A DNA stretch of 64,000 nt. It comes from Oceanospirillaceae bacterium (GTDB taxonomy: Bacteria > Pseudomonadota > Gammaproteobacteria > Pseudomonadales > Balneatricaceae). A model generated the notes under the pieces. That model saw only the letters and a list, made by a program, of their open reading frames with translations. It was not told where the DNA came from and searched no databases. Both the position numbers and the translations under genes were made by a program. The stretch lies in the NCBI GenBank assembly GCA_024640955.1, contig JAHEDZ010000010.1:1-64000 (forward strand). The letters are read 5' to 3'. Of the stretch, positions 30,793 through 33,182 are shown one piece after another (position 1 is the first letter of the stretch; every line of letters starts with the position of its first letter).

Positions 30793-32040
30793 TTATTTCT
30801 CTTCTTGCATCTGGGTCAGCACCTGCAGCGCCCAGCTGATACTGTGGCGGTAAGCCACCTCGAGGTAAGGCTTTTCGATCGGTAGGCGAAGATGAGCAAA
30901 GTTGCCACGCTCGTAGAATTCGATATTCTGAAGAACCTCCCCTTCAGAGTCCCTGTACTCGAGAATAGCCGCTTTCAGATGATGATCGAGTGGCACTTGG
31001 GCCATCAGCTCATCCATCGGGATCTCCATCAAGGCATCAAGTTGCGACAGCAAGCCAACGAAGAAGTGATTCATCGGATTTTCACGTTCAAGCATCTCAG
31101 CGGTCACTTCGCACATCCGGCCCCGCTGCAGCATGGCTCGGGTCATCTCTTGTGGCTGGCCCTCCTCGGCGGCTGACAGAAACAGCATCACCCAGCGGCG
31201 GATCTGGTCCAAACCCAAAAGTGAGATCGCGTGAGCCAGGCTTGAGACTTCGCGCCTTAAGCTGAAAGCAGCAGAGTTAATGACGCGAAGGATTTTATAA
31301 ACAAGTTCAGGATCGCGCAGTGCGAGCGCCTCAATCGACTGCGAGGTCGCTTTAGGATTGTTGAGCTCTGTTAGAATTTGCAACAGAACCAACTTATTGC
31401 CCTTCACACTTCGCCCGCGCACCAATTGCGGCTTGCTGAGAACGTACCCCATAAATAGGTCGAAGCCCATCCGCTGGCACGCCTGAAACTCATCAACGGT
31501 CTCAACCTTATCAGCGAGCAGTTCTACACCCTTACGCCGCAGTCGACGCACGATGTTAAGAAGCTCTTCGAGCTCAAATTTGCGCAGGTCGAGCTTAACA
31601 ATTTGAGCCAGGTTAAGCAGAGCATTAAAACGGGGGTCCCTAGGGTCATAATCCGCTAGTGCGATCTTGAACCCCTCCTTTACCAGAAAATCGATCCGCT
31701 CAATCAGTTTAGGTGTAATAGCCGTGCTACCAATCACTTCAAGCACAAAGCTCTCACGTGGAATTTCCGGGATATCATGTTCCAGCAGAAAGGTATCATT
31801 CACCTTTAGGAACAGCGGTGCCTGACGTACAGAGCTCTTATCCTGAACACTTGAATAAGTGTTCAGGAGGACATTAAGCGTCGCCTCATCATCCTTGAGG
31901 TCCTTAACAAAGTTTCCAGATTCATCCCGAAACAGAAGCTCAAATGCCACCACCTCTTTCGACTTTGTGTAGATCGGCTGACGCGCCATCAGCACTTGAA
32001 GTTGCTGTTCGTCGACGGTTGATAGCGAGTTCATGGGCAT
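30793..32040 (-). CDS. HDOD domain protein with degenerate EAL-like N-terminus (YuxH/CdgJ-type)
   Basis: ARQPIYTKSKEVVAFELLFRD N-terminus and HDOD domain; ATG at 32040. Confidence 0.8.
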   Translation of the reverse strand: MPMNSLSTVDEQQLQVLMARQPIYTKSKEVVAFELLFRDESGNFVKDLKDDEATLNVLLNTYSSVQDKSSVRQAPLFLKVNDTFLLEHDIPEIPRESFVLEVIGSTAITPKLIERIDFLVKEGFKIALADYDPRDPRFNALLNLAQIVKLDLRKFELEELLNIVRRLRRKGVELLADKVETVDEFQACQRMGFDLFMGYVLSKPQLVRGRSVKGNKLVLLQILTELNNPKATSQSIEALALRDPELVYKILRVINSAAFSLRREVSSLAHAISLLGLDQIRRWVMLFLSAAEEGQPQEMTRAMLQRGRMCEVTAEMLERENPMNHFFVGLLSQLDALMEIPMDELMAQVPLDHHLKAAILEYRDSEGEVLQNIEFYERGNFAHLRLPIEKPYLEVAYRHSISWALQVLTQMQEEK

Positions 32041-32062: not shown

Positions 32063-32566
32063 TCAGTGTAGCTGTGAATCTTTAGTCTCGGTGGTTTGCG
32101 ACAGTGGCGCAAGCCAATCGGGCCACTTCTCGCAGCTCCACTCTGCTCTGCGATAGAGCTCACGCAGAATACTCAGCCATTGGCGCAGCGCTGTGCGCGG
32201 AATCTCCAAGCGGGCAGACTCGCTCTGATTGTCACTAAAGACTAAAGTGATCGACTTAGGGCGCGGAGTCAGATCAACGCGCCTTACGAGCCAGGCGTGC
32301 TCTGCAGCAGCAATTGGAGCCTCTTGTTCGATCTCGCGCTGCGCTTTTTGTTGAGTGAACGCTTGTAGATCCCTCGCTTGAGGACTCCCACTGGTCTCCT
32401 CTTCCAACACTTTAACCAGCGCAGGTATCACGCGATTAAGCAGTCGTTGAGTCAGCCATAGGGTGGTGAGCTTTTGCATAGGATCCTCCAGATTGAGCCG
32501 GATACGATCCTCTTCCTGCACGTACTCGGTCGTGAGGCGTTCGATCTTAAATTCTTGATCAGCCAT
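32063..32566 (-). CDS. uncharacterised protein
   Basis: 167 aa from ATG at 32566; no family recognised from sequence alone; co-oriented with flanking genes, start overlaps the upstream short ORF as TGATG. Confidence 0.6.
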   Translation of the reverse strand: MADQEFKIERLTTEYVQEEDRIRLNLEDPMQKLTTLWLTQRLLNRVIPALVKVLEEETSGSPQARDLQAFTQQKAQREIEQEAPIAAAEHAWLVRRVDLTPRPKSITLVFSDNQSESARLEIPRTALRQWLSILRELYRRAEWSCEKWPDWLAPLSQTTETKDSQLH

Positions 32567-32643
32567 CAAATAAATGGAACAAATGGGACACAGCCGTTTA
32601 ATGCCAGAAGCGCCGCCGCGGTGACCAATAGTTTAATTTTCAT
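32566..32643 (-). CDS. 25-aa putative lipoprotein (MKIKLLVTAAALLALNGCVPFVPFI)
   Basis: Manual reading, not in ORF track: ATG with GGAG SD, charged N-terminus, hydrophobic core, LNGC lipobox-like site, stop overlapping the next start as TGATG. Confidence 0.6.
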   Translation of the reverse strand: MKIKLLVTAAALLALNGCVPFVPFI

Positions 32644-32714
32644 ACATTAACTCCATGTAAATCGCCGCTCTCGCGCATCCATGCGCACGCGGCATACATT
32701 ACGTCCATGTAAAT
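32641..32714. repeat. 22-bp direct repeat (20/22 identical), copies at 32641..32662 and 32693..32714, flanking a hairpin
   Basis: CATACATTAACTCCATGTAAAT and CATACATTACGTCCATGTAAAT, 52 bp apart; between them GCCGC-N4-GCGCAT-CC-ATGCGC-AC-GCGGC. Confidence 0.8.
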
Positions 32715-32742
32715 AAAAAGGCAGCCGAAGCTGCCTTTTTTG
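32714..32742. terminator. Rho-independent terminator downstream of atpC
   Basis: AAAAAGGCAGC CGAA GCTGCCTTTTTT. Confidence 0.85.
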
Positions 32743-32756
32743 GTTTTGCACTTAGC

Positions 32757-33182
32757 TTACTTGCCAAGTTTGCGGCGAATCTGCTCGATCGCACGCAGCT
32801 GTGCGGTTGCTTCTGCAAGCTGTGCTGCAGCAGTTGAGTATTCGAACTCACCCTGCTTATCAGCCATCGCCTGCTCAGCAGCCTTCTGCGCTTCAAGAGC
32901 TGTCGCTTCATCAAGATCGTGCGCACGAGACGCAGTGTCAGCCAGGATAGTCACCTTGGTTGGCTGGACCTCTAAGAAACCACCGGACACGTAAATCACG
33001 TCCTCTTCACCGCCCTGCTTGCGAAGCTCGACAGGGCCTGGGTTGATTTCCGACAACAGCGGAGTGTGACCCGGGTAAACACCCAGCTCACCCAGGCTAC
33101 CCCTCACTGAGATGAACTCGACAAGGCCTGAGAAGATCTCTTCTTCAGCACTTACGATGTCGCAATGAACAGTCATAGCCAT
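32757..33182 (-). CDS. atpC: F0F1 ATP synthase subunit epsilon
   Basis: 141 aa; [42 protein letters not shown]. Confidence 0.95.

Follow-up and report, generated by a model that had tools for sequence, protein, structure and literature searches.

The window, which here means the whole stretch of 64,000 nucleotides that was analysed, contains on its minus strand an ORF of 25 codons that is very probably a genuine and conserved micro-lipoprotein gene. Comparison of related sequences shows strong purifying selection on the frame, on its start signals and most of all on the peptide at its C-terminus, whereas the sequence of the signal peptide, the DNA and the neighbouring genes can vary freely. 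The best explanation for the whole of the observations, to which we give a probability of about 55%, is an undescribed family of micro-lipoproteins in which the functional product would be the mature acylated octapeptide with a docking tail.

Reading frame and start signals

The preliminary description had proposed a 25-aa lipoprotein-like ORF with a GGAG Shine-Dalgarno (SD) sequence and a stop codon overlapping the next gene, and the translation, coordinates, strand and stop agree exactly with the sequence (Table 1). The GGAG is found as described, with an anti-SD duplex of -5.9 kcal/mol, and the sequence leading into the start reads ...TTTACATGGAGTTAATGT ATG AAA.... The stop codon TGA (32568–32566) shares bases with the ATG of the ORF at 32063–32566 on the same strand, giving TGATG. 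An LNGC lipobox-like site had also been proposed, and here the n-region charge, the hydrophobic core and a lipobox ending in Cys are all present, but the Asn at -2 is unusual and is not among the residues allowed by the PROSITE pattern PS00013. When the window was scanned for ORFs of this type (SD ≤ -5, charged n-region, uncharged core, L-x-[GAS]-C, tail ≤ 14) only the ORF at 32566–32643 was returned, compared with 0.08 on average over 25 dinucleotide-shuffled windows.

Table 1. Position and basis of the features at the micro-lipoprotein locus of the window.
Feature	Position	Strand	Basis
Micro-lipoprotein ORF, 25 aa, MKIKLLVTAAALLALNGCVPFVPFI, then stop	32566..32643	-	Translation; 6/6 genomes of the genus; pN = 0 after Cys
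Predicted type II signal peptide, residues 1–17 (2 Lys, hydrophobic core, LNG/C cleavage site)	32593..32643	-	Lipobox and charge counts
Predicted mature acyl-octapeptide CVPFVPFI	32569..32592	-	Synonymous and nonsynonymous pairwise differences after Cys, genus (65 and 0)
SD sequence GGAG, 7 nt 5' of ATG	32651..32654	-	Sequence; duplex energy
Repeat copy 2, TTTACATGGAGTTAATGTATG, holding SD and start codon of the micro-lipoprotein ORF	32641..32661	-	Sequence, genome search
Repeat copy 1, TTTACATGGACGTAATGTATG	32693..32713	-	Sequence, genome search
Bidirectional terminator-like hairpin after atpC	32715..32740	.	Sequence, terminator scan
atpC (ATP synthase epsilon), upstream neighbour in the window genome only	32757..33182	-	Profile match
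Probably coupled downstream gene, 167 aa, no SD, two predicted beta-beta-beta-alpha repeats	32063..32566	-	Start-site energies, structure model
EAL-HDOD protein gene, downstream of the pair, common to genus genome G005 only	30793..32040	-	Profile match, neighbourhood comparison

Conservation in the genus

When the 25 aa were used in a translated search that imposed neither the tail nor the stop codon, all five other genomes of the genus gave a match, so that the ORF is present in six of six with the window genome. Each match lies directly upstream of an orthologue (164–167 aa) of the 167-aa gene, located by an independent search, which is the arrangement in relatives that the preliminary description had proposed to look for. 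All six copies end exactly in ...GCVPFVPFI with the stop immediately after. In pairwise comparison the codons after the Cys show 65 synonymous and 0 nonsynonymous differences (pS 0.81, pN 0.00), whereas the 15 codons before it, in the signal peptide, have pS 0.70 and pN 0.43, and the conserved unit is therefore the peptide after the Cys, and neither the DNA nor the signal peptide. With homologues throughout the genus, an SD sequence and a tail with pN = 0, the ORF is a conserved coding frame with lipoprotein features, in line with the earlier suggestion of a real microprotein; the conserved C-terminal octapeptide and the spread across classes both go beyond that reading.

The downstream gene and translational coupling

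The start of the 167-aa gene lacks an SD in five of the six species (duplex ≥ +0.6 kcal/mol), and the gap from the micro-lipoprotein stop to the downstream ATG is -1, 3, 4, 4, 7 and 14 nt in the six genomes. An SD is found at the first start of 38 of the 48 long ORFs in the window, but the threshold of -3 kcal/mol is also reached by 41% of random 20-mers, and it is thus the absence of an SD that is informative. Since its own start lacks an SD in 5/6, translation of the 167-aa gene is likely to be coupled to the micro-lipoprotein ORF in this genus. A coupling leader had been suggested for the ORF, and the coupling stands as probable, but not as the purpose of the ORF: several genomes carry the same peptide with no gene coupled to it, and among the six genomes of the genus only the window genome has the TGATG overlap with the 167-aa gene.

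No Pfam, NCBIfam or PHROG family matched the 167-aa gene. The AF2 model of its product has two beta-beta-beta-alpha repeats at moderate confidence (pLDDT 72), and its best PDB match, PUR-alpha (E 7e-3, low TM-score), is suggestive at most. The 167-aa protein has no evident export signal, and a direct complex with the lipopeptide is therefore unlikely. In other genera, most homologues of the gene have an SD and lack an upstream lipopeptide; they lie in clusters that also encode SapC and giant repeat (adhesin-like) proteins.

Distribution of the family

The C(x)VPFVPFI micro-lipoproteins are defined here as ORFs of 23–27 aa with a lipobox and a mature part C(0–2 residues)[VI]P[FLI][VI]P[FLC][IVM], followed by a stop. 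The family so defined has 33 members, among them the window ORF. All are 23–27 aa long, 32 have an SD of ≤ -3 kcal/mol, and 31 agree with the PS00013 lipoprotein pattern. The mature parts contain no Lys or Arg, and their charge is limited to two Asp. Beyond the genus the carriers are three other Marinobacterium, a neighbouring genus, a deltaproteobacterium, a member of the Rickettsiales, Pseudoruegeria, and 18 genomes of another proteobacterial family, with tails of the form C(G/GG/SG/D)V/I-P-F-V-P-F/L-I-stop.

A permissive tail pattern (any of V/I/L/F/M at three positions), scanned against 84,980 species, gave 28 matches. Every [VI]PFVPFI match, including Marinobacterium of two genera, is a lipoprotein ORF of 23–26 aa, whereas the LPFLPFL-like matches have no comparable signal peptide. 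Among these ORFs are those of Pseudoruegeria (MKRAQTILLLISAALITGCVPFVPFI), of the Rickettsiales (MRIIILIACALAISACIPFVPFI) and of a deltaproteobacterial MAG (MIKMTALFIGLVFALSGCIPFVPFI), the last with the SD AGGAG and its own terminator-like hairpin after the gene. Within the bacterium's own family, [VI]PF[VI]P[FC][VI] with a stop occurs in 12 of 117 genomes, one in each, with 0 in the control, so that most sampled relatives lack the tested tails; a third genus has CGGVPFVPCI (after SapC) and CSGVPFVPFI (after thiC). The phylum search found CGVPFVPFI in a second proteobacterial family, probably Rhodobacteraceae, where a pattern that left open +2 and five hydrophobic positions matched 16 of 199 genomes, one in each (control 0). 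The residues used at these positions were G in 15/16, V in 16/16, V in 15/16 and a final I in 15/16 (I/V 16/16), and for V at +3 alone p = 2e-10 in this set. The patterns for the most distant members fixed both prolines and the stop, and the invariance of these across families is partly by construction; the unbiased set for them is the genus copies.

Two wider searches were set aside. A class profile search with the 12-member alignment gave, beyond its own genome, only generic lipoprotein signals (positions 1–16), and a relaxed tail without the extra residue returned from 399 phylum genomes the bacterium's own copy and three chance-like matches, with two in the control; the extra Gly is the element absent from that pattern. 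The distant members may have converged rather than be orthologous, 8–9 residues giving no proof, and convergent tails would be an argument for a common binding site.

The genes flanking members outside the genus are unrelated (gltD, thiC, SapC, KAS III, thymidine kinase, DUF3422, SPOUT methyltransferase, iPGM and others). No Pfam family adjoins more than two members, and almost all copies, one per genome, stand beside unrelated genes. Since neighbours almost never recur, it is the peptide and not a neighbour on which selection acts, and on the evidence of these neighbourhoods the micro-lipoprotein is encoded by a gene on its own, which moves without any partner operon.

Comparison with known families

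No Pfam, NCBIfam or PHROG family matched the micro-lipoprotein, and a phage or plasmid origin was rejected after searches of viral contigs, phages and plasmids had all given no match. It resembles LptM (YifL; PF13627, NF047847) in being a very small lipoprotein with a conserved part that starts at the lipobox, but LptM is about 6 kDa and has a conserved region of its own. The window ORF was rejected as an LptM, with 12.8 bits against NF047847 (cut-off 27.7) that came from the signal peptide only. PF13627 reaches only 13–14 bits (cut-off 27.3) in two relatives, and the true LptM of the window genome is encoded elsewhere (G000:C42:5457–5531) with 36.9 bits, above the cut-off. Entericidins A/B are likewise tiny and often overlooked proteobacterial lipoproteins, but of about 50 aa (52 aa for a member of the family in S. 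meliloti, PMC10117765) and with a longer mature part; the entericidin profile (Pfam) matched neither the window ORF nor any relative. Colicin lysis proteins and phage Rz1 are also small lipoproteins, but have longer mature parts and a phage or plasmid context of which the micro-lipoprotein has none. Small lipoproteins are thus known as a kind, and a conserved family with a mature part of 8–10 residues is new as far as could be tested. No paper with the tail sequences was found in the literature searched, which is no proof that nobody has noted the tail.

Proposed function

In the window genome the functional product would be acylated Cys-Val-Pro-Phe-Val-Pro-Phe-Ile-COOH. Following the lipoprotein pathway, the precursor would be translated, exported by Sec, diacylated at the Cys by Lgt, cut by LspA and N-acylated by Lnt, and with no Asp at +2 it should be transferred by Lol to the outer membrane, into its inner leaflet; the outer membrane is also the expected location of most members. 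Two members have an Asp in position +2, a residue that would hold a lipoprotein back in the inner membrane of E. coli. The octapeptide, uncharged and of only about 8 residues, would stay at or in the membrane and could serve as a ligand or subunit held by its lipid anchor. The PxxPx-I tail with its free carboxylate would then enter a hydrophobic pocket of an envelope protein, with beta-barrels of the outer membrane and PDZ-type proteases or sensors of the envelope as candidates. This docking is the least certain step and is put forward tentatively, by analogy. A precedent for a small lipoprotein that acts by docking is LptM on LptD, where it inserts beside the outer-membrane barrel of the LPS translocon (PMC10567701). 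In this genus the ribosomes of the ORF would also translate the SD-less 167-aa gene across the stop-start overlap or short gap.

The finished lipid-tagged octapeptide probably does a job that has not been described. Lipoproteins are usually seen as folded domains on a lipid anchor, and here selection is on a mature part of 8–10 residues, about the smallest possible for a gene-encoded lipoprotein. More speculatively, and with some doubt, lipoproteins that consist of a lipid and 8–10 residues in at least three major proteobacterial lineages might be endogenous ligands that serve an important envelope machine as structural subunit or activator; if so, annotation has overlooked the family because of the length of its genes. 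The members were found by their tail and not by their neighbours, and the length cut-offs of gene callers would drop such ORFs. Because the product is a defined lipopeptide and open to synthesis, photo-crosslinking in marine bacteria that are amenable to genetics allows a direct search for its partner.

Alternative explanations

A chance lipoprotein-like frame is hardly credible: the ORF has only 25 codons and its SD and start lie inside a short tandem repeat with two copies in the genome, as would suit a fortuitous frame, but 0.08 are expected per window, pN/pS is 0 in the tail and the matches across classes have a control of 0, and the conservation data already refute it. A leader that only delivers ribosomes to the SD-less 167-aa gene, its peptide being irrelevant, would account for the TGATG here, the gaps of 3–14 nt in the other five genomes, the absence of an SD downstream in 5/6, and the pair being kept together despite differing flanking genes. 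The geometry and the downstream start without an SD are those of leader peptides with stop-start overlap; the micro-lipoprotein, however, is kept residue by residue, with no replacement among the pairwise differences, although a leader needs no invariant octapeptide. Moreover, the tail exists without a coupled gene in M. mangrovicola, M. lutimaris, M. litorale, the deltaproteobacterium with its own hairpin, and others, and these stand-alone copies already disfavour the leader, which we consider improbable. A small lytic or lysis-type lipoprotein (bacteriocin-release, Rz1 or entericidin-like), one of the roles first suggested, would fit the small size and the lipoprotein signal, but is very improbable given that viral contigs, phages, plasmids and PHROG are all without a match, that no toxin/immunity or lysis gene lies near the members, and that the mature peptide, of only 8 residues, is far shorter than in those families.

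Two other readings give the peptide itself a role. It is unlikely, though conceivable, that the micro-lipoprotein is an envelope-stress reporter, in line with the other role first suggested: a PDZ-type protease or sensor, with a logic like that of DegS/Prc, would read the tail and its free carboxylate when the micro-lipoprotein is mislocalised, and the tail would so report how well lipoproteins are being transported. PDZ domains typically bind hydrophobic C-termini, the stop follows directly after Ile in the unbiased genus set, and the last residue is I/V in all 16 of the permissive set; the terminus is nevertheless P-F/L-I and not the YxF of DegS ligands, no stress gene lies nearby, and the reading is drawn from analogy. 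Also rather unlikely is a lipopeptide signal, released or presented between cells as the mature or a processed peptide. The peptide is hydrophobic and of pheromone size, single-copy and independent of its neighbours, and enterococcal sex pheromones are cut from lipoproteins; the known ones, however, derive from the signal peptide, here the variable part, while the conserved part should stay acylated and membrane-bound, and no receptor or importer gene was found to recur nearby.

Surroundings of the locus

The place upstream of the pair is taken by atpC in the window genome, by a sensor-kinase-like gene in G005 and, in the four others, by a divergent dienelactone-hydrolase-like gene, the last two labels coming from reading the sequences, with no profile match. 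The micro-lipoprotein starts 72 nt past the terminator-like hairpin after atpC, and a promoter scan found no sigma-70 promoter. An RNA element or riboswitch was rejected, the STnc40 Rfam match of 31.2 bits being below the gathering value of 45 and lying at 32673–32741 (plus strand) over the atpC terminator, with a fold z of -1.2. Two 21-bp copies of TTTACATGGA(CG/GT)TAATGTATG are located at 32641–32713 on the minus strand, with a spacing of 52 bp and a GC-rich palindrome between them, and are the only copies in the genome. The tandem repeat was rejected as a mobile or REP-like element, having two genome copies only and a ACATGGATGT core that is not enriched in the window. Copy 1 opens an ORF of 22 aa.

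In loci L138 and L140 (both 1501–1578) the CGGVPFVPCI variants, with a second Cys in the tail, directly follow the SapC gene, and a homologue of the 167-aa gene lies about 7–10 kb away on the same contigs. In L169 (1501–1575), from the second proteobacterial family, the micro-lipoprotein overlaps the next gene (ArsC/Spx-like) by TGATG, which is an independent recurrence of the geometry in the window.
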